This document shows positions 33,212 to 42,248 of a DNA stretch of 64,000 nt, piece by piece. Every line of letters begins with the position of its first letter. Position 1 is the first letter of the stretch. The notes beneath the pieces were generated by a model, which saw only the letters and a program-made list of their open reading frames with translations, was not told the origin of the DNA and did no database searches. This DNA is from Stenotrophomonas sp. SAU14A_NAIMI4_8 (GTDB lineage Bacteria > Pseudomonadota > Gammaproteobacteria > Xanthomonadales > Xanthomonadaceae): NCBI RefSeq assembly GCF_003086695.1, contig NZ_CP025999.1, positions 1,228,820-1,292,819 of the forward strand. The letters are read 5' to 3'. The position numbers were made by a program, and so were the translations under genes.

Positions 33212-34408
33212 TTGGTCGGTCACCATGGCCGCCCCACGTTCTGGATTCACGTTGTGCTGAGTACTGTTGGATTGTTGATGGGCCTGTACGTGGCCTGGCG
33301 CCTGTTCTGGCCGCTGCGGCTGCCGCTCTGGGCCAAGGCGCTGTTGTCGCTGCTGCTGGTGGCGTTGGCGGTGCAGCTGCGCATTGTTGCCACCTTCTGG
33401 GGCACGATGGCCTCGCCGGAAATTCCCAAGCTGGCCATCGCCGTGCTGGCCACCGGTTCCACCGCCGTGCTGCTGCTGGCGCTGGCCCTGCTGGTGATGG
33501 ATGCGGGCCTGCTGCTGTCGCGCCTGCTGCGCTGGCCGCGCGTGGTGACAGCGCTGCGCGCCCGTATGCTGCGGCCGCTGGCGGCTGGATTGGCCCTGCT
33601 GCTCAGTGGTTACGGTGTCAGCCAGGGCATGGCGGTACCGCAGGTGCGGCAGATCGAAGTGAACATGGCCGGGCTGCCGGCGGCGTTCGACGGCTACCGC
33701 GTACTGCAACTCACCGACATCCACGCCAGCCGCTTGCTGACCGGCGACTGGGTGCGCCGGGTCGTGGCGGAAAGCAATGCGCTGAAGCCGGACCTGATCG
33801 TGATCACTGGCGACCTGATCGATGGCACCGTGGCCGCGCGTCGCGATGATTTCCGGCCCCTGGGTGAACTGCAGGCCGCCGACGGGGTGATCGCCATCAC
33901 CGGCAACCACGAGTACTACGCGCAGTACCGCGAATGGATGCAGGCGTTCCGCGCGCTGCACATGCAGGTGCTGGAAAACAGTCATACCCAGGTGCGTCGT
34001 GGCGATGCGGCGATCACCATCGCCGGTGTCACCGATCCGGTCGCGGCCCGCTACGGCCTGCCGCTTCCCGATCTGGACGCCGCCCTGGCCGGTGCCGACC
34101 CGGCCGCGCCGGTGATCCTGCTGGACCACCGCCCGCGCAACGCGCGCGAAGCGGCCGAGCGCGGCGTGCAGCTGCAGTTGTCCGGGCATACCCATGGCGG
34201 CCAGATCATCGGCATGGACCAGCTGGTGAAGCGCGCCAATGGTGGTTACGTGTCCGGCCGCTACGCGGTCAATGACATGACCCTGTACGTCAGCAACGGC
34301 GCCGGCCTGTGGGCGGGCTTCCCCGCGCGGATCGGCGTACCCTCGGAGATCACCCTGATCACCCTGCGCCCGGGGTCGGACCCCTTGGCCAAAGGCCAAG
34401 GGCTCTGA
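33212..34408 (+). CDS. Membrane-anchored metallophosphoesterase
   Basis: The protein has about 398 aa. Four predicted N-terminal membrane helices (to residue ~140) precede a calcineurin-like phosphoesterase domain with the motif series LQLTDIHASR, VITGDLIDG, ITGNHEYY and LSGHTHGGQ, all metal ligands present. Relatives such as YkuE hydrolyse phospholipid-like phosphodiesters. The start is uncertain: the TTG at 33212 is the longest option and lacks a good Shine-Dalgarno. The last 12 or so residues (PGSDPLAKGQGL) are read from the palindromic GGGGTC repeat at 34372-34411, which also supplies the stop codon. Confidence 0.87.
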   Translation: MVGHHGRPTFWIHVVLSTVGLLMGLYVAWRLFWPLRLPLWAKALLSLLLVALAVQLRIVATFWGTMASPEIPKLAIAVLATGSTAVLLLALALLVMDAGLLLSRLLRWPRVVTALRARMLRPLAAGLALLLSGYGVSQGMAVPQVRQIEVNMAGLPAAFDGYRVLQLTDIHASRLLTGDWVRRVVAESNALKPDLIVITGDLIDGTVAARRDDFRPLGELQAADGVIAITGNHEYYAQYREWMQAFRALHMQVLENSHTQVRRGDAAITIAGVTDPVAARYGLPLPDLDAALAGADPAAPVILLDHRPRNAREAAERGVQLQLSGHTHGGQIIGMDQLVKRANGGYVSGRYAVNDMTLYVSNGAGLWAGFPARIGVPSEITLITLRPGSDPLAKGQGL

Positions 34409-34465
34409 CCCACCGCCAGCCAACCCGGGGTCGGATCCCTTGGCAACGCCAAGGGCTCTGACCCC
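34372..34465. repeat. Two copies of a ~40-bp GGGGTC...GACCCC palindrome
   Basis: Copies at 34372-34411 and 34427-34465 have the form GGGGTCGGATCCCTTGG, variable loop and CCAAGGGCTCTGACCCC. The first copy contains the end and TGA stop of the metallophosphoesterase gene. The arms are GC-rich, and the whole element can fold into a long hairpin. Confidence 0.85.
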
Positions 34466-34489
34466 AAGGACCCGCACACCACGGCAACC

Positions 34490-34915
34490 ATGGCCCACCC
34501 CCGCGCCCCGCTGGAACGACTGATCCGCGGCAACGCCGATGAAATCAACCGGCTGCAGCGACTCATCCACGAGACGGCGGCGCTGCGCTGGCGTGGGCCG
34601 GAAGAGAAGCAGCGCCATGCCGAGGCCTGTGCGCAGTTCCACCAACGGTATGCGGAGCTGGCGTTTCCCGGTGGCTATGCACACGCCCTGCAGCAGTTGG
34701 CCGCGCACGATCCCAACATCGTCGATGGTGTGCTGACGTTCCTGGAAGTGCGTCCGTACTTCTTCCGCTCCGGTTACATGTGGAACACCCTGTACAAGCG
34801 CGTGCAGCGGGTGCCGATGGGAGTGAACCAGCAGGCGCGCCTGCAGGTGATCGTCGCGGCGTACAAGGCCTATCGCGAGGGGTCAGATCCCTTTGCCACC
34901 GGCAAAGGGCTCTGA
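34490..34915 (+). CDS. Hypothetical protein with repeat-encoded C-terminus
   Basis: The protein has 141 aa and no signal peptide or membrane segment. It is largely helical (ERLIRGNADEINRLQRLIHETAALRW, then FPGGYAHALQQLAAHDPNIVDGVLTFLEVRPYFFRSGYMWNTL). I do not recognise a family. The last 11 residues GSDPFATGKGL and the stop come from the palindromic repeat at 34879-34919, just as in the upstream gene. The true ancestral end was probably near YKAYRE. Confidence 0.7.
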   Translation: MAHPRAPLERLIRGNADEINRLQRLIHETAALRWRGPEEKQRHAEACAQFHQRYAELAFPGGYAHALQQLAAHDPNIVDGVLTFLEVRPYFFRSGYMWNTLYKRVQRVPMGVNQQARLQVIVAAYKAYREGSDPFATGKGL

Positions 34916-34926: not shown

Positions 34927-35562
34927 TCACGCCGCCCGCAACGGGCGCGTACGCGCACTGCGCTTCAGTGACTGCCCACGCTTGGCGATGGCGCGTACCA
35001 CGAAGGCAGTGAACAGCAGCGCCGACGGCACGGCGTACCAGAAGTTGGCCGGTACGCGCTTGAAGTACGAATAGGTGAACACCGCGGCGATGATCCACAT
35101 GCCGGTGGTGTGCAGGCGTCGCCATGCCGTGGGCCCCATGCGCAGGGCGATGCCGCGCTGCGAGGTGATCGCCAGCGCCAGGATCGCCACGTAGCCCACC
35201 GTGCCGGGCAGGTTGGCCAGGGCCGAGCGCGCCGGCCAGAACGCCGGGTTCAGAATGCCGAACGTGGTGATCGCCACGGCATGCAGCAGGTGCGAGAACG
35301 CGAACGACAGGCCGATGATGCGGCGCTCGCGCAGCAGGAAGTGGGTGGTTGGCCCGGGCAGCAGACTGGCGAACGATGACGCGGTGAACGCGGCCAGGAA
35401 CAGCACGAACGAGGTGCGTGCGGTCACCCGGATGGCCGCGCGGCTGCCCTCCACCACGTCGGGTTGCAGAGCGAATGCGGCCATTGCGAAGGCGATCAGC
35501 ACCACGGCGATGGCCACGAACAGACGCCAGCCGTGCAGGAAGGAAGGGGTTGAAGCAGCCAT
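34927..35562 (-). CDS. Ferric reductase-like transmembrane protein
   Basis: The protein has 211 aa and six or so membrane helices. His residues in the helices (PTTHFLLRERRIIGLSFAFSHLLHAVAI and RRLHTTGMW) match the heme b ligands of the ferric-reductase-like transmembrane domain. No flavin/NAD domain is fused, so it would work with a separate electron donor. It follows the DUF2063 gene by 51 nt on the same strand and may close the RiPP operon, giving a redox link to metal handling. A GAGGTC motif precedes the ATG at 35562. Confidence 0.82.
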   Translation of the reverse strand: MAASTPSFLHGWRLFVAIAVVLIAFAMAAFALQPDVVEGSRAAIRVTARTSFVLFLAAFTASSFASLLPGPTTHFLLRERRIIGLSFAFSHLLHAVAITTFGILNPAFWPARSALANLPGTVGYVAILALAITSQRGIALRMGPTAWRRLHTTGMWIIAAVFTYSYFKRVPANFWYAVPSALLFTAFVVRAIAKRGQSLKRSARTRPLRAA

Positions 35563-35613
35563 GGTCAGACCTCGATGAAGGAAGAAGGGAAGGGCGGCCG
35601 GTGGCCGCAGGGT

Positions 35614-36348
35614 TCAGGCGCTGCGCGCTGCGACCAGCACGCCGGCTGCGCACAGGTGGGCGAGCAGCGGTGCGGTGGCGGCCTGCAGTTCGCCGCGGTC
35701 GACACCGTGAGCGTCGGCCAGCAGCTGCAGCGCCTCATCCACGCGCGCGCCGTCATTGCCCAGTGCGGTCAGCAGGGCGTAGGCCAGCGGTGCCAGCACC
35801 TGCGTGTGCAGGCTGAAATCGGCGTGGCGATGCAGCAACAGCAAAGTCGGCGCCGCCTCGGGCCGCGTGGTCAGCACCTCGTCCTGGTGCACCGGCCACT
35901 GGTAGCCCAGCACACGCACGTGTGTGGACAGTGCCAGCACATGCGTGCCCGTTGCGGCCTGTTCGAGCGCCTGCCCGGGATCGCGTGCCTCGATATGCAG
36001 CGCCTGCTGCGTGCTTTCGTAGTGCGCAAGTTCTGCGGCCCAGCCTGGCAGTGCCAGCGTGTCCTGCATTGCCAGCCAGGCGGCGAACTCGCCGGCAATC
36101 TGCGGGAACATCGGGGTATGGCAGGCATGGCGGGCGTAGTAATGCTCGACCATGCCGCGCCAGCGTGGCCCGCCCAGGTGCTGCTGCAGGCGCGGCAGGC
36201 TGCCGGCCAGCAGGCTGTCCAGGCTGTCGATGCACAGGCGGCGATAGACCGCCAGCCGCCGCGCGTCGATGCCCGCCGGTGCCGGCGTGGACGGGTCACG
36301 CACATGCCCGGCCCAACGCTGCTGCAGGGTGGCCAGTGTCTCAGCCAT
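35614..36348 (-). CDS. DUF2063-type partner protein of the DUF692 RiPP maturase
   Basis: The protein has 244 aa. The N-terminal part is the DUF2063 DNA-binding-like domain ([47 protein letters not shown]), which in MbnC/HvfC/BufC-type partners binds the precursor leader and supports the maturase. The C-terminal region is variable. The start at 36348 overlaps the DUF692 gene by 8 nt, so the two are translated together. Its role in precursor recognition is taken from characterised relatives; no experimental link exists for this sequence. Confidence 0.87.
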
Positions 36349-37186
36349 GGGCCACCTCGGGCTGCAGCACATCGATCTGGGCCTGGCGGATCTGCTCCAC
36401 CTCGGCCAGCAGCTCGGCCAGCGGCGGAAAATTGAAATCGCGTTCCAGCAGGGTGGGTCGCACGCCAACACGCGCATAGGCCTCGCGCAGCAGCGCCCAC
36501 ACCACGCCTTTCACCGGCGCGCCATGGGTGTCGATCTTGAAGCCGTCGTCTTCGTCGAAGTGCCCAGCTACATGCAGCGACGCCACGCGGTGGGCCGGTA
36601 CACGGGCGAGGAAATCGAAGGCGTCGTAGCCGTTGTTGCAGGCGTTGACGAAAACGTTGTTCACGTCCAGCAGCAGGTCACAGTCGGCTTCGTCCAGCAC
36701 GGCATTGATGAAGTCGATCTCGCTCATGTCCGCGCCAGGCACGGCGTAGTAGGAAATGTTTTCCACCGCGATGCGCCGCCCCAGCATGTCCTGCACCTGG
36801 GCGATGCGACCGGCGACGTGGTGTACCGCTTCGGCAGTGAAGGGCAGCGGCAGCAGGTCGTAAACATGGCCGCCGGCGGCGCAGTAGCTCAGGTGTTCGC
36901 TGTACAGCTGCACCTGGTGCAGATCGAGGAAGGCGCGGGTCTGCGCCAGCAGGGTCTGGTCCAACGGGTCCGGCCCACCCAGCGACAACGACAGGCCATG
37001 GCAGGTCAGGCGATGGCGTTCGCTCAGCTGGCGCAGCGCGGCACCGTGGGCGCCGCCCACGCCAATCCAGTTGTCCGGCGAGACTTCCAGGAAATCGATG
37101 GCATCGGCCGGCATGGCCAGCAGTTCATCGATCAGGCCGCGGCGCAGGCCAAGACCGGCGCTGGCAGGGGGCAGGGGCGTGTGCAT
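36341..37186 (-). CDS. DUF692 (MNIO) multinuclear iron-dependent oxidase, RiPP maturase
   Basis: The protein has 281 aa when started at the ATG 37186 (TGGAG Shine-Dalgarno), giving the typical [16 protein letters not shown] opening. Probable iron ligands are all visible: H63 ([10 protein letters not shown]), H98 (YSEHLSY), E142 (AVENISYY), D174 with N176/N177 (LDVNN), H205 and H209 (LHVAGH), D219 and H221, E249 (LLERD). Family members (MbnB, HvfB, BufB) use iron and oxygen to turn precursor cysteines into oxazolone/thioamide or thiooxazole groups. The neighbouring EGKCG peptide is the expected substrate. Confidence 0.93.
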
Positions 37187-37205
37187 GCGCTTACTCCAGG
37201 GCAAG

Positions 37206-37228
37206 GGCGCCGCCGTTGCGGCGGCGCC
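37206..37228 (-). promoter_or_regulatory. Strong GC hairpin between precursor and maturase genes
   Basis: GGCGCCGCCG, a 3-nt loop and CGGCGGCGCC form a perfect 10-bp stem between the precursor stop (37241) and the maturase start (37186). No T-run follows. It could be a partial terminator or RNA-stabilising structure that raises precursor over maturase output. Confidence 0.6.
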
Positions 37229-37240
37229 GGGTGGGGGCAA

Positions 37241-37717
37241 TCAGTCGTTGACGCGGGAGAACAGACCCTTCGGCATCGGCTTGCCGTGGGCGGTGTAGAC
37301 GCTGCGCAGGTAGTCGTGTGCTTCCTGTTCGCTGATGTAGCCATCGTGGTTGGTGTCGATGCGATCGAACTCGGCGGCGCGCTCGCCGGCCACGGCGTTG
37401 AACTCGGCCCGCGAGACGCGGCCGTCGTGGTCACGGTCGGTGCGGGCAAACGAGGCATCGCCACACTTGCCTTCACCGCACTGGCCTTCGGCCACCTTGG
37501 CCTTGCCGGCGGGTTTGCTGGTGCTGGCCTTGTTGGCGCCGCACTTGCCTTCACCGCACTTGCCTTCGGCGGCGGCGCTCATGGATACCGCGCTGATTGC
37601 CAACGGTTGGATCGCAGCGGCCTGGCCGGCCAGCAGCAGGCCACCGGCCAGGGCGATGCCAATGGCGCCGATGCGCGGCAGGCGGGAAGCAGAGGTGTTC
37701 TTGGTCGAGACGGACAT
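37241..37717 (-). CDS. Cys-rich RiPP precursor (bufferin/HvfA-like) with two EF-hands
   Basis: The protein has 158 aa. The N-terminal region (residues 1-36) holds a signal-type hydrophobic segment IGAIGIALAGGLLLAGQAAA. Two Cys pairs follow in EGKCGEGKCG (C54, C59) and EGQCGEGKCG (C80, C85), joined by a Lys/Ala/Ser linker. EGKCG is the motif modified in oxazolin/bufferin-type peptides. The rest carries two canonical EF-hand loops, D94-E105 (DRDHDGRVSRAE) and D121-E132 (DTNHDGYISEQE). AAGGAG precedes the ATG at 37717. Copper or other metal binding outside the cytoplasm is inferred from the family; the EF-hand fusion suggests calcium or a second metal. Confidence 0.85.
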   Translation of the reverse strand: MSVSTKNTSASRLPRIGAIGIALAGGLLLAGQAAAIQPLAISAVSMSAAAEGKCGEGKCGANKASTSKPAGKAKVAEGQCGEGKCGDASFARTDRDHDGRVSRAEFNAVAGERAAEFDRIDTNHDGYISEQEAHDYLRSVYTAHGKPMPKGLFSRVND

Positions 37718-37811
37718 GGTGGTGACTCCTTGGGATTGCACGCAGGGCGTGCGGGATGGACGCCGCATGGCGCGACGGAAAGCGAAAGGGATGCGCAGTG
37801 AGTGCGCTGGA

Positions 37812-38456
37812 TCAGGCGCTGCGGCGACGGCGCAGCGCGTAGGCCAGCAGCAGGACCCCGCCGAGCGCGGCGCCGCCGAAACCGATGCCGGGCAGCAGCG
37901 CGGCGACGGGCAGCAGCAGGGCGATCAGGCTGACGCCCCAGCCCAGGCCGTCATCGCCAACCGTGGCGCGCTGTCGGCCGGCCAGCAGCTGGTCCAGGCT
38001 GAGTGCGCCGCCGCCGTTGAGGATCAGCGGCAGCAACATGGCCAGGAACAGCAGCGGCAGCTTGAAGTTGCCGTAGCCCTGGTCGGTGATCGCATAGCCC
38101 TGCCAGAGTTCGCCCAGGCCGTTCCACTGGTCGGGCCAATGCACGGCGGCAATGGCGACGATGGTCAGCACCCAGAAGATGTAGGCCACCGAACGCGTGG
38201 CCAGGCCCAGCAGCAACAGCACTGCACCGACCAGCTCCAGCCAGGTGGCCAACTGCCAGTTCAGCGATGCCGGCAGGGTGGAGAACGGGAACGGGAAGCG
38301 CCCGTCCAGATCGGCGAACCAGTTCTGCCCGCCCAGCTTCTCGCGGCCGGATTCGAAGAATTCCCAGGCCAGCAGTGCACGCAGGGCCAGCGGCGAGAGC
38401 CAGCGGCCAACGGCATTCAGGCGGGGGGTATAGCGCGAAGCGGCGGTGCTGATCAT
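37812..38456 (-). CDS. DoxX-family membrane protein of the RiPP operon
   Basis: The protein has 214 aa. It has four or more membrane helices with the DoxX pattern [44 protein letters not shown] and a small extra C-terminal helix pair ending in RRRRSA. DoxX proteins accompany DUF692 maturases in many metal-stress RiPP operons (the HvfD position). It is the first gene of this operon, 94 nt before the precursor. Its role may be quinone-linked redox chemistry or disulfide maintenance; unproven. Confidence 0.87.
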
Positions 38457-38798
38457 GGAGGTGTCCTGCGGGCCAGTGGTCGATGGAGACCATTTCGAGC
38501 CACGCAGGTATCGGCAACGTGTGCCGTTGCCCGGGGTTTTGTCAGCCACTGTGGCCGCGGCAGGGGTTTCGTACAGTCCGATACAAAGACGCCGGGTCGC
38601 GTGTTCGCCGGGCGCGGCCCGGTGCTACCGGGTGGTAAAGGTTCCCCGCACGTACGCGCGAGGATGCCCGGCGGCCGAATGTATCCCACTGTAGGAACCC
38701 GCCACCGCCCTACAGTCCGGTACAACTCGGCCCCGCAGCGAAACAGCGCCGATACACCCGCAGGCGGAAATGGCCACTCCCAACCCTGGAGTGCTCCC
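38457..38798. other. Divergent spacer with paired 15-mers and a REP unit
   Basis: These 342 nt separate the RiPP operon from the alpha/beta hydrolase gene. TACAGTCCGATACAA (38572-38586) and TACAGTCCGGTACAA (38711-38725) are near-identical direct copies 139 nt apart and are candidate regulator sites. A SMAG-type unit in inverted orientation lies at 38606-38628. No credible gene is present. Confidence 0.6.
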
Positions 38799-39593
38799 AT
38801 GATCCGCACCACCCTGCTTGCCGCCACCCTGGCTCTGGCCGGCGCCGCCACCCCCGCCTTCGCCGCGCAGGCCGATGCCGGCGCGCCGCCCACCGTCATC
38901 CTGGTGCACGGCGCCTTCGCCGATGGCTCCAGCTGGAACAAGGTCATCAGCACGCTGCACGATTGGAAGGTACCGGCAGTGGCGGTGCAGAACCCGCTCA
39001 CGTCGCTGGCCGACGATGTCGCGGCCACCCGTCGTGCGATCGCTGCGGCGCCCGGCAAGGTGGTGCTGGTCGGCCACAGCTGGGGTGGCACGGTCATCAC
39101 CGAAGCGGGCAACGATCCCAAGGTGCAGGCGCTGGTCTACGTGGCCGCCTTCGCACCCGATGTCGGCCAATCGTCGGCACAGCAGGGCGAGGGGTTCCCG
39201 GTGGGCCCGGGCCTGACCCGCCTGCAGGACCGCGATGGCTACCTGAGCCTGCCGGCCGATGCCATCGCCCAGGACTTCGCGCCGGACGTGATGAAGAAGA
39301 CCGCAGCGCTGCTGTACAGCACCCAGGTGCCGCTGAAGGCCAGCGCCCTTGGCGAAGCCGTCACCACCGCCGCCTGGCGTGGCAAGCCGAGCTGGTACGT
39401 GCTCAGTCGCGACGACCGCATGCTGTCGCCGCAACTGCAGGCCGCCACTGCAAAGCGCATCGGTGCACAGCTGCAGTCGGTCGGCAGCAGCCACGTGTCG
39501 CTGCTCTCGCACCCGGCGCAGGTGGCCGACACCATCCTGGAAGCGGCGGGGGTGAAGCCGGCCGAGCTGCCGCTGGCCGAGCAGGGGGGCTGA
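38799..39593 (+). CDS. Secreted alpha/beta-hydrolase
   Basis: The protein has 264 aa with signal peptide MIRTTLLAATLALAGAATPAFA. It has oxyanion-type motif VILVHGAFADGSSWN, nucleophile motif LVGHSWGGTV (catalytic Ser), and a C-terminal SSHVSLLSHP with the likely catalytic His. It belongs to the esterase/haloperoxidase-like group frequently annotated in exported form. Substrate is unknown. TGGAG lies 8 nt before the ATG. It is followed by the thioredoxin-like gene after 3 nt, so they form an operon. Confidence 0.85.
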   Translation: MIRTTLLAATLALAGAATPAFAAQADAGAPPTVILVHGAFADGSSWNKVISTLHDWKVPAVAVQNPLTSLADDVAATRRAIAAAPGKVVLVGHSWGGTVITEAGNDPKVQALVYVAAFAPDVGQSSAQQGEGFPVGPGLTRLQDRDGYLSLPADAIAQDFAPDVMKKTAALLYSTQVPLKASALGEAVTTAAWRGKPSWYVLSRDDRMLSPQLQAATAKRIGAQLQSVGSSHVSLLSHPAQVADTILEAAGVKPAELPLAEQGG

Positions 39594-39596
39594 GCG

Positions 39597-40142
39597 ATGG
39601 CCACGCTGCGCACCTACGCCCTGCCGTTGCTGCTGGCCCTGATCGGTGGCGCGGCACTGCTGCTGGTCTGGCCCAGCCCCGCCGCGGACGCGCAACCGGC
39701 CGAGCCCGTTGCCGCGGCCGGTTTCGACGGCGGCGGACCCTGGCACAACAGCCCGCCGCTGCGCCTGGAGCAGTTGCGCGGGCAGGTGGTGCTGGTCGAG
39801 TTCTGGACCTATGCCTGCAGCAACTGCCTGAACGTGGCGCCTTACGTGCACCAGTGGCACGCACGCTACGCACCGAAGGGCCTGCGCGTGGTGGGCGTGC
39901 ACACGCCCGAGTTCGCCTATGAGGGACTGCAGGGCAACGTGCGCCACGCGATCCGTCGCCTGGATATCACCTGGCCGGTGGTGCAGGACAACCAGTACCG
40001 GATCTGGAACGCATGGGGCAACCGCTTCTGGCCGGCGCTGTACCTGGTCGACCGGCAGGGCCGGGTGGTCTACCGGCACTACGGCGAAGGTGACTACGCG
40101 CGTACCGAAAGCGAAATCCAGCGCCTGCTGGCCAGTCCCTGA
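39597..40142 (+). CDS. Membrane-anchored thioredoxin-like protein (TlpA/DipZ C-terminal-like)
   Basis: The protein has 181 aa. One N-terminal membrane anchor (residues 8-25) precedes a thioredoxin fold with active site C74-S-N-C77 in WTYACSNCLNV, and WPVVQDNQYRIWNAWGNRFWPALYLVD later with the cis-Pro. The WTYxCxNC form is that of the thioredoxin domain in DipZ-like proteins. It would reduce or exchange disulfides in the periplasm. It is coupled with the exported hydrolase gene. Confidence 0.85.
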   Translation: MATLRTYALPLLLALIGGAALLLVWPSPAADAQPAEPVAAAGFDGGGPWHNSPPLRLEQLRGQVVLVEFWTYACSNCLNVAPYVHQWHARYAPKGLRVVGVHTPEFAYEGLQGNVRHAIRRLDITWPVVQDNQYRIWNAWGNRFWPALYLVDRQGRVVYRHYGEGDYARTESEIQRLLASP

Positions 40143-40197: not shown

Positions 40198-40938
40198 ATG
40201 AACCACGTACCGCACATTCTTGTCGTCGACGATGACAGTGACATCCGGCAGATGCTGGCCGACTACCTGCAGCGCAACGGCTTGCGCGTCAGCCAGGCCG
40301 ACGGCGGCCGGGCCATGCGCGCGCTGATGGATACCCACGCGGTGGACCTGGTGGTGCTGGACGTGATGATGCCCGGCGAGGACGGCCTGAGCCTGTGCCG
40401 CAACCTGCGTGCGGGCAAGCATCGTGCGGTGCCGGTGGTGCTGCTGACCGCGCGCGATGATGAAACCGATCGCATCATCGGCCTGGAAATGGGCGCCGAT
40501 GATTACGTGACCAAGCCGTTCTCCTCGCGCGAGCTTCTGGCGCGCATCAATGCGGTGATCCGCCGCACGCAGATGCTGCCGCCGAACCTGCAGGTGAGTG
40601 AAGCGGGGCGCCAGTTGGCGTTCGGCGAATGGCGGCTGGATACCACCGCACGCCATCTGCTGGATGCGCAGGACACCGCCTATCCGCTCAGTGGTGCCGA
40701 ATTCCGCCTGCTGCGCGTGTTCCTGGACCATGCCAACCGCGTGCTCAGCCGCGACCAGCTGCTCAGCCTCACCCAGGGTCGCGATGCCGAACTGTTCGAC
40801 CGTTCCATCGACCTGCTGGTCAGCCGCGTGCGCCAGCGCCTGGGCGATGATGCGCGCGAGCCGACCTACATCAAGACGGTGCGCAGCGAAGGCTATGTGT
40901 TCAGCGTACCGGTGCAGTTGCTGGGGCCGCAGGAATGA
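40198..40938 (+). CDS. OmpR-family response regulator
   Basis: The protein has 246 aa. The receiver domain has acidic pocket D11-D12-D13, phosphorylation site D55 (VVLDVMMPGEDG), T84 region LLTARDDE and K106 (YVTKPFSSRE). The C-terminal winged helix ends ...YIKTVRSEGYVFSVPVQL. The stop overlaps the kinase gene by 4 nt. Targets are unknown; the two 15-mers at 38572 and 38711 are possible nearby sites. Confidence 0.95.
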   Translation: MNHVPHILVVDDDSDIRQMLADYLQRNGLRVSQADGGRAMRALMDTHAVDLVVLDVMMPGEDGLSLCRNLRAGKHRAVPVVLLTARDDETDRIIGLEMGADDYVTKPFSSRELLARINAVIRRTQMLPPNLQVSEAGRQLAFGEWRLDTTARHLLDAQDTAYPLSGAEFRLLRVFLDHANRVLSRDQLLSLTQGRDAELFDRSIDLLVSRVRQRLGDDAREPTYIKTVRSEGYVFSVPVQLLGPQE

Positions 40939-42248
40939 AGGCCGTCGCGCGCCGCCTGCCGTGGCCGCGCACGTTGTCCGCGCGCCTGCTGCTGTTGTTG
41001 CTGGGCGGGCTGACCCTGGCGCACGCGCTGTCCTTCGGCCTGTTGTTCTTCGAGCGCTACCAGGCCACCCGCAGCATGATGCTGCGCAACCTGGACGAAG
41101 ACGTGGCGGTGAGCGTGGCCCTGCTGGAGCACCTGCCGGCCCGTGAGCGCGCGGCCTGGGTGCCGCGGCTGGAGAGGCGCACGTATCGCTACCTGCTGCG
41201 CCCGGCGGCAGCGGGGCCGGCGCTTGAAACCGAGCGTGCGCGCCAGGTCACCGCGATCATCGATGACAGCCTGGAACACCGCTATCCGCTGCAGGCGCGC
41301 CAGGTTGCGCGCCTTCCGGAGCGCTTCGAAGTGGAGCTGAAGCTGCACGACGGTACGCCGTTGACCATCGAAGTGACCCCTTCGGGGCTGCCGCTGGCGC
41401 GCTGGTTGCCGGCGGTGCTGCTGCTGCAGCTGGCCCTGTTGCTGGCGTGCGCGTGGTTGGCGGTGCGCCTGGCCATGAAGCCGCTGGCGCGTCTGTCGCA
41501 GGCGGTTGAACAACTGCAGCCGGGCAGTGATGCCGCGCCGCTGGCAGAGGATGGGCCGGCCGAAGTCGGCGCCGCGGCCGCGGCGCTCAATGGCCTGCAG
41601 ACACGCATCCGTGGCCATGTCAGCGAGCGCCTGCAGATTCTGGCGGCCATCTCGCACGATCTGCAGACGCCGATCACGCGCATGAAGCTGCGCGTGGAAA
41701 CACTGCCGGAAGATGCCACCCAGCAGCGCCTACTGGATGACCTGGACCACCTGGGGCAACTGGTGCGCGAAGGCGTGGCCTATGCACGCAGCAGCCATGT
41801 GGCCAGCGGCGCGCCGGTGGCGATGGATCTGGGCGCGTTCCTGGCCAGTGTGGTGGGCGACTATGAAGACATGGGCAAGCCGGTTACGGGGGGTGCGGCC
41901 GCGGGCCTGACCGTGCAGACCTGGCCGCAGCCGCTGCGGCGGGTGGTCGGCAACCTGGTCGACAACGCAGTGCGCTACGCCGGCAGCGCCGAGATCGAGG
42001 CGGGGCGCGATGCGGCGGGCAGGGTGTGGATCGCCGTGTCCGACCGCGGCCCCGGCATTCCCGAGGCCGAGCTGCAGGCGGTACTGGCGCCGTTCCATCG
42101 CCTGGAACAATCGCGCAACCGCGATACCGGCGGCACCGGGCTGGGGTTGGCCATCGCCGTGCAGCTGGCGCAGTCGCTGGGCGGTTCGCTGCAGCTGCGC
42201 AACCGCGACGGTGGCGGCCTGCAGGCGCGGCTGCAGCTGCCGGGGTGA
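40935..42248 (+). CDS. Membrane sensor histidine kinase
   Basis: The protein has 437 aa. Membrane segments at about 16-40 and 157-178 flank a small periplasmic sensor (about 115 residues). A HAMP linker follows, then the phospho-acceptor H241 in ISHDLQTPITRMKLRVE, N-box NLVDNAVRYAG and G-boxes DRGPGIPEAEL and DTGGTGLGLAIAVQLAQS. It partners the OmpR-type regulator encoded just upstream. The signal is unknown. A palindromic GGGGTC repeat begins 7 nt after the stop. Confidence 0.95.
   Translation: MKAVARRLPWPRTLSARLLLLLLGGLTLAHALSFGLLFFERYQATRSMMLRNLDEDVAVSVALLEHLPARERAAWVPRLERRTYRYLLRPAAAGPALETERARQVTAIIDDSLEHRYPLQARQVARLPERFEVELKLHDGTPLTIEVTPSGLPLARWLPAVLLLQLALLLACAWLAVRLAMKPLARLSQAVEQLQPGSDAAPLAEDGPAEVGAAAAALNGLQTRIRGHVSERLQILAAISHDLQTPITRMKLRVETLPEDATQQRLLDDLDHLGQLVREGVAYARSSHVASGAPVAMDLGAFLASVVGDYEDMGKPVTGGAAAGLTVQTWPQPLRRVVGNLVDNAVRYAGSAEIEAGRDAAGRVWIAVSDRGPGIPEAELQAVLAPFHRLEQSRNRDTGGTGLGLAIAVQLAQSLGGSLQLRNRDGGGLQARLQLPG

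Follow-up and report, generated by a model that had tools for sequence, protein, structure and literature searches.

The closest described relatives of the locus presented here are the captophorins, namely HvfABCX (oxazolin) of Haemophilus influenzae and FonABC (fontiphorin), and the EfhP system of Pseudomonas aeruginosa. Captophorin precursors carry EGKCG motifs and are encoded with an MNIO (DUF692) enzyme, a DUF2063 partner and DoxX. The characterised EGKCG products bear 5-thiooxazole and bind copper, and such clusters are induced by copper, gold and oxidative stress (PMC13097082). Precursors that combine EGKCG motifs with two EF-hands at the C-terminus have been reported by Antoine et al. 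(2025), who name EfhP as an example of EF-hand fusions and find ferric-reductase genes in few such clusters (PMC12452194). Here we describe an operon of this kind at positions 34927-38456 of a 64,000-nucleotide stretch of DNA (hereafter the window) from Stenotrophomonas sp. SAU14A_NAIMI4_8, whose genome is a single contig of 4.48 Mb, together with the two-component system that lies beside it. We find an ordinary captophorin core whose EF-hand subtype is already in print, and whose connection to a BfmRS-like switch is clear and open to experiment.

In P. aeruginosa the EfhP genes are numbered PA4107-PA4106-PA4105, a second unit is PA4103-PA4104, with PA4103 being ferric-reductase-like, and bfmRS is PA4101-PA4102; BfmR binds the efhP promoter (PMC4148453). 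In chromatin immunoprecipitation sequencing (ChIP-seq) the top three BfmR peaks lie at bfmR, pa4103 and pa4107, and no gene is activated more than efhP (PMC8025907). A 2014 study that found lower resistance to oxidative stress on deletion of efhP already pointed out that genes for DUF692 and DUF2063 proteins lie next to it (PMC4053335). Recombinant EfhP, which was produced in E. coli from efhP lacking the signal region, binds Ca2+ with a dissociation constant (Kd) of 13.7 μM and changes conformation on binding (PMC9132961). Most recently, a 2024 mBio paper described four EGKCG repeats in EfhP, proposed iron sensing for them, showed that efhP deletion hinders calcium regulation, iron-uptake genes included, and mentioned BfmRS (PMC11559002). 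In the open-licence PMC literature, BfmR was not found together with MNIO, or with DUF692, in any paper; 'EF-hand' is absent from PMC13097082 and 'two-component' from PMC13419390.

The window operon occupies the minus strand and runs from DoxX through the precursor, the MNIO and the DUF2063 partner to a heme-type membrane protein. All five genes have a checked ATG start and are open with zero internal stops. A preliminary description of this DNA had proposed a same-direction operon of DoxX, a Cys-rich precursor, DUF692, DUF2063 and a ferric-reductase-like protein, and both the layout and the operon type are borne out. The DoxX/HvfX-type membrane protein (214 residues; 37812..38456; PF07681, E 3.2e-18) scores 137.8 bits against the HvfX model NF050144 (cut-off 80), the MNIO (281 residues; 36341..37186; PDB 3bww, E 2.3e-71) 412.7 bits against the HvfB model NF003818 (cut-off 360) and the DUF2063 partner (244 residues; 35614..36348; PDB 3dee, E 2e-5) 197.7 bits against the HvfC model NF050145 (cut-off 142). 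The MNIO falls below NF050167, the BufB-type maturase model of Bufferins Buf1/Buf2 (270.5 bits, cut-off 310). It is 96% identical to the S. geniculata MNIO, and the nearest named relatives at the locus are from Stenotrophomonas. The genes are closely spaced, with 94 bp between DoxX and precursor, 54 bp between precursor and MNIO, an 8-bp overlap of MNIO and partner, and 51 bp between the partner and the heme-protein gene.

The precursor (158 residues, predicted to be secreted; 37241..37717, minus strand), supported by profile matches, alignment and a checked start, contains the repeated KCGExKCG domain NF050137 (36.2 bits, cut-off 19.5, E 3.6e-9) and matches EF-hand_5 (E 6.5e-10). Behind a signal-type N-terminus, judged by eye, lie cysteines 54, 59, 80 and 85 and two intact 12-residue EF loops, DRDHDGRVSRAE (94-105) and DTNHDGYISEQE (121-132), all at the positions first reported and now confirmed on the checked translation. 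The EGKCG motifs are, as was proposed, the likely modification sites, with the amendment that EGQCG stands in place of EGKCG in one of the four. The four cysteines do not vary across 17 aligned relatives, and neither do the opening Asp, the Gly and the closing Glu of each EF loop. An AlphaFold2 model from 17 sequences has a C-terminal EF-hand pair with blocks at a predicted local distance difference test (pLDDT) score of 73-88 and a low-confidence repeat region at 36-46 (mean 59.5). Foldseek with this model returned EF-hand proteins as best matches, all at E > 0.001, and a PDB sequence search with the precursor gave nothing useful. Six cysteines are modified in HvfA and seven in FonA, whereas the window precursor offers four candidates. 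At E <= 0.001 a protein search yields 2246 related sequences, and several of the matches listed already bear the NCBI or UniRef name 'HvfA family', with Stenotrophomonas, Lysobacter, Pseudomonas, Cupriavidus and Bordetella as their sources.

We rejected the idea that the EF-hand fusion itself is new, as the Buf_EGKC|EF-hand_5 proteins in PMC12452194 have a short EGKCG region followed by two C-terminal EF-hands, which is exactly the window architecture. Nor is the combination with a ferric-reductase-like gene as unusual as was first thought, given that EF-hand EGKCG precursors, and ferric-reductase genes in few of their clusters, were in print in 2025 (PMC12452194) and that EfhP (PA4107) is itself a member. 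BfmR has 0 occurrences in PMC12452194, and the passage on these fusions there places EF-hands only at the C-terminus.

The link to EfhP was drawn through a Pseudomonas locus, L265, whose EfhP is 95% identical to a P. aeruginosa entry. There EfhP-MNIO-partner face DoxX-heme protein-kinase-regulator, an order that agrees with the published PA gene numbers and by which PA4104 would be the DoxX gene. Identities between window and L265 are 72% for the regulator, 54% for the kinase, 72% for the MNIO, 60% for the precursor, 60% for DoxX and 52% for the heme protein. The window shares with the P. aeruginosa EfhP operon the EGKCG repeats with two EF-hands, the DUF692 and DUF2063 neighbours, a PA4103 counterpart, a two-component system and the same type of box (see below). 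It differs in that both target units are merged into one operon headed by DoxX, and in that the regulator genes are divergent and lie behind hydrolase and thioredoxin-like genes. The window operon thus looks like two BfmR-driven Pseudomonas units joined together.

Three things go beyond the preliminary description: the two-component system, the boxes to which it likely binds, and the EfhP connection. The regulator is a BfmR-like response regulator of the OmpR family (40198..40938, plus strand), followed by a BfmS-like sensor histidine kinase (40935..42248, plus strand). Orthologues of both separate cleanly from other matches, the regulator having 28 matches of at least 432 bits (next 285) and the kinase 28 of at least 681 bits (next 110), with orthology judged against L265 and not against P. 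aeruginosa BfmR itself. Three TACA-N6-TACA boxes, a pattern found nowhere else in the 64 kb, lie in the 342-bp divergent promoter region between the operon and the regulator-bearing unit: TACAGTCCGATACA (38572..38585, plus strand), 115 bp upstream of the DoxX start, and TACAGTGGGATACA (38680..38693, minus strand) and TACAGTCCGGTACA (38711..38724, plus strand), 105 bp and 74 bp upstream of the divergent hydrolase start. In this order they agree with the P. aeruginosa BfmR ChIP-seq motif TACAA-N3-GATACA (PMC8025907) at 10, 10 and 9 of 11 fixed positions. The expectation for 64 kb is 0.06 boxes and three were reached in 0/100 shuffles, figures that are after the fact because the pattern was picked by eye from this region once the shorter published motif GATACAnnGC had been seen, and before the ChIP-seq motif was known to us. 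At L265 the box that precedes the heme-protein gene extends into GATACATAAC, in agreement with the PA4103 footprint GATACAnnAC; both this footprint and the shorter motif are from PMC4148453.

To place the locus among its relatives we drew on three sets of loci, with architecture classes assigned by pattern and not by hand. Set A comprises 80 named loci found with a query of the window architecture and is therefore biased towards it. Set B consists of the window and 100 further regions from Xanthomonadaceae, in which 93 of 149 genomes matched; a model of the window architecture served to collect it, so that other architectures are under-sampled, and it leaves out six matching places (G306:C1:92419, G333:C23, G366:C302, G372:C196, G377:C181 and G377:C182). 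Set C comprises 19 Pseudomonas loci from 19 of 20 matching genomes in a draw of 25, the twentieth (G421) being L014 in set A. Short stretches represent two of the set C loci (L267, 5.4 kb; L283, 12.5 kb). Some genomes are common to sets A and B (for example L012 and L151), and sequence counts include near-identical repeats.

The regulator, the boxes, DoxX and the heme protein recur beside relatives of the precursor in several genera. Set B (n=101) holds 17 precursors of the window type, 57 with the EF pair between EGKCG motifs, 24 without EF-hands, 2 with the EF-hands first and 1 locus (L247) that yielded no precursor and was counted among the 84 others. Beside window-type precursors the regulator occurs at 12/17 loci, the heme protein at 8/17 and the box at 14/17, and each at 0/84 of the others; these counts speak for a neighbourhood that has been conserved, not for one gained independently several times. 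The 12 regulator-holding loci span five genera, and a thioredoxin-like orthologue is present in 12/12. Such precursors likewise have the regulator as a neighbour in Rheinheimera (L020), Steroidobacter (L033) and Lysobacter (L060, L064). In set A, boxes occur at 34/53 window-type loci against 4/27 others. In set C a box lies 154-212 bp upstream of the precursor in 17/19 loci, in one orientation in all 17, and boxes number 43 against 2 of a reversed control pattern. Regulator and kinase are present at 11/19 of these loci. The heme-protein orthologue is present at 12/19, 11 of which also hold regulator and kinase; with PA4103 as a top BfmR target, the terminal ferric-reductase-like gene is not the oddity that it had been taken for. 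Across sets A and B, 48/74 boxes are antisense to the nearest gene, a weak signal since nearest-gene assignment is crude in divergent regions; the Pseudomonas figure of 17/17 is the cleaner one.

Two broader generalisations were discarded. The regulator does not go with all EF-hand EGKCG precursors, as 61/73 EF-hand loci with an MNIO in Xanthomonadaceae lack it. Nor do stand-alone EF-hand precursors occur without any maturase, as an MNIO was found elsewhere in 28/28 genomes, a check covering 28 of the 32 set A loci whose precursor is not near an MNIO gene. In a class-wide survey, 165/276 genomes had an MNIO match and 42/276 a match to the precursor model. The EF-hand precursor is patchy even within the genus, with no match in 3/6 same-genus genomes (G147, G384 and G403; own genome counted).

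Taken together, these data make it probable that the operon is a BfmRS-driven system for a thiooxazole-type copper-buffering protein with a calcium-binding lobe. By analogy with HvfABC and FonABC, the MNIO and its DUF2063 partner would likely convert the four EGKCG/EGQCG cysteines to 5-thiooxazole rings, and the modified precursor would be a periplasmic copper-buffering protein whose C-terminal lobe, as in EfhP, may bind calcium. The BfmRS-like system would switch the operon on via the three boxes, direct activation being suggested by the P. aeruginosa data. We would further guess that thiols or copper are held in the reduced state by periplasmic electrons from the heme and thioredoxin-like proteins, and that the copper site is tuned by calcium. 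The latter guess was prompted by the constant distance between the last cysteine and the first recognised EF-loop Asp, which is 9 residues in 81/85 distinct precursors with an EF loop after the last cysteine (159 distinct precursors examined), the window precursor included. EGKCG repeat number among precursors varies from 2 upward, and stand-alone copies with a single EGKCGEGKCG pair still hold it next to the EF lobe.

A number of observations weigh against this interpretation. The regulator is not nearby in 5/17 window-type loci of set B, and in set A it accompanies 13/53 window-type loci against 3/27 others (p 0.24), the latter three being the Pseudomonas loci L067, L071 and L074. A tree of 152 MNIO sequences calls for 4 changes in the window architecture and 16 in the presence of the regulator; the contrast of 12/17 with 0/84 is phylogenetically clumped on this tree and thus does not represent 17 independent events, and an independent-pairs test, with 3 pairs only, found no significant association of architecture with regulator. 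Regarding the promoter, the box expectation is after the fact, as stated above, and none of the three boxes matches the BfmR motif in full: the fifth motif base, A in the published version, is G in all three, and TACAGTCCGGTACA reads GGTACA where the motif has GATACA. Genome-wide there are 9 boxes, three of them at the window promoter, against 13 of the reversed control pattern, so that only the clustering of boxes is unusual and not their total. No sigma-70-like promoter was found by a promoter scan of 38400-38850. Two of the 19 Pseudomonas loci lack an exact box upstream of the precursor, among them L265, where the best box upstream of EfhP has one mismatch. The precursor itself is not HvfA, scoring 30.1 bits against the full-length equivalog NF050188 (cut-off 95). 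Moreover, the idea that the kinase carries an invariant metal site in its periplasmic part was discarded, as no Cys, His or Met there is conserved in >= 80% of 40 sequences; direct copper sensing by the kinase is therefore disfavoured.

The heme-type membrane protein bears on the first of the alternatives. This 211-residue protein (34927..35562, minus strand) has a single match in its own genome. Like MsrQ and ferric-reductase-like heme proteins it gives a weak MsrQ profile match and has invariant histidines, H91, H94 and H151 being conserved in 30/30 aligned sequences (some from overlapping loci), and it may well bind heme. Unlike them it reaches only 31.8 bits with the NCBI MsrQ model (cut-off 130), is only 211 residues long and has no Pfam match at E <= 1; a PDB search gave nothing useful. 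Together with DoxX, the thioredoxin-like protein and the thiol-rich precursor it could form a redox buffer against periplasmic oxidant stress and not against copper. Such a role is in keeping with the recurring heme-type and thioredoxin-like partners, with the induction of these clusters by oxidative stress as well as by copper and gold and with the oxidative-stress phenotype of the efhP mutant. However, the characterised EGKCG products bind copper (PMC13097082) and 4/12 regulator-holding loci of set B lack the heme protein, and we regard this reading as unlikely.

A second alternative is that the precursor, as has been proposed for EfhP, is mainly a calcium sensor signalling to other pathways, with cysteines serving other sensing, such as that of iron, and rings, if any, secondary. 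It draws on the Ca2+ affinity and conformational change of recombinant EfhP (PMC9132961), and on the impaired calcium regulation, iron-uptake genes included, upon efhP deletion and the iron sensing proposed for the repeats (PMC11559002). Against this, the precursor shares its operon with MNIO and partner, the genomes with stand-alone precursors hold an MNIO elsewhere (28/28), single-pair copies retain EGKCGEGKCG beside the EF lobe, and the EfhP measurements were made on E. coli protein from efhP itself and hence not on a modified form. We consider this alternative quite improbable. Least credible is an ordinary captophorin operon with the EF lobe as a folding or retention tag and the two-component system as a chance neighbour, since, for all that 24/101 family loci lack EF-hands and the tree-aware test gave the regulator association no support, the same boxes stand upstream of Pseudomonas precursors even where the stretch holds no regulator (L019, L021, L024), and binding of BfmR to the efhP promoter is documented in P. 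aeruginosa (PMC4148453).

The remainder of the divergent unit consists of its first gene, encoding an alpha/beta hydrolase-like protein (38799..39593, plus strand; weak NCBIfam matches only, start checked), and the gene for the thioredoxin-like protein, which has a CSNC motif (39597..40142, plus strand; PF08534, PF00578). On the other side of the operon, short palindrome-like repeats of the type GGGTC...CCAAGGGCTCTGACCC recur around 34367-34915; they were seen by eye and are perhaps elements of the repetitive extragenic palindromic (REP) type. The same genome holds a second MNIO operon (L002, G000:C1:1530360-1531142) with an EGKCG precursor without EF-hands, a DUF2063 partner and DoxX, and the whole-genome box scan placed no TACA-N6-TACA box near it. 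Other arrangements were met among the surveyed loci. At Pseudomonas loci L036, L038-L041, L044-L048 and others the EF-hand precursor stands alone and has one EGKCGEGKCG pair only, the stretch around it being free of MNIO, regulator and box; most of these genomes are among the 28 in which an MNIO was found elsewhere. Loci L172, L174, L164, L077 and others show the second architecture, in which the EF pair is flanked by EGKCG motifs on both sides. At L061, one MNIO/partner pair is flanked by two EF-hand precursors of the window architecture.

The finding joins two literatures, that of Pseudomonas calcium signalling and BfmRS and that of MNIO copper peptides. If the BfmRS-driven, copper-buffering interpretation is true, the product of the gene for which the strongest activation by BfmR is reported is a copper-binding protein in modified form, whereas the calcium affinity in print for EfhP was obtained with the protein unmodified. 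More tentatively, and at odds that we would not call favourable, BfmRS may be the dedicated switch of a conserved periplasmic EF-hand captophorin module made up of the regulator, the modified copper-binding EfhP-type protein, DoxX and a heme electron carrier, in which calcium gates copper held by rings adjacent to the first EF loop. Were this so, the published EfhP binding data would come from a protein produced in the absence of its maturation enzymes, and what P. aeruginosa shows as calcium and iron phenotypes of EfhP would be the effects of a modified metal-handling protein.

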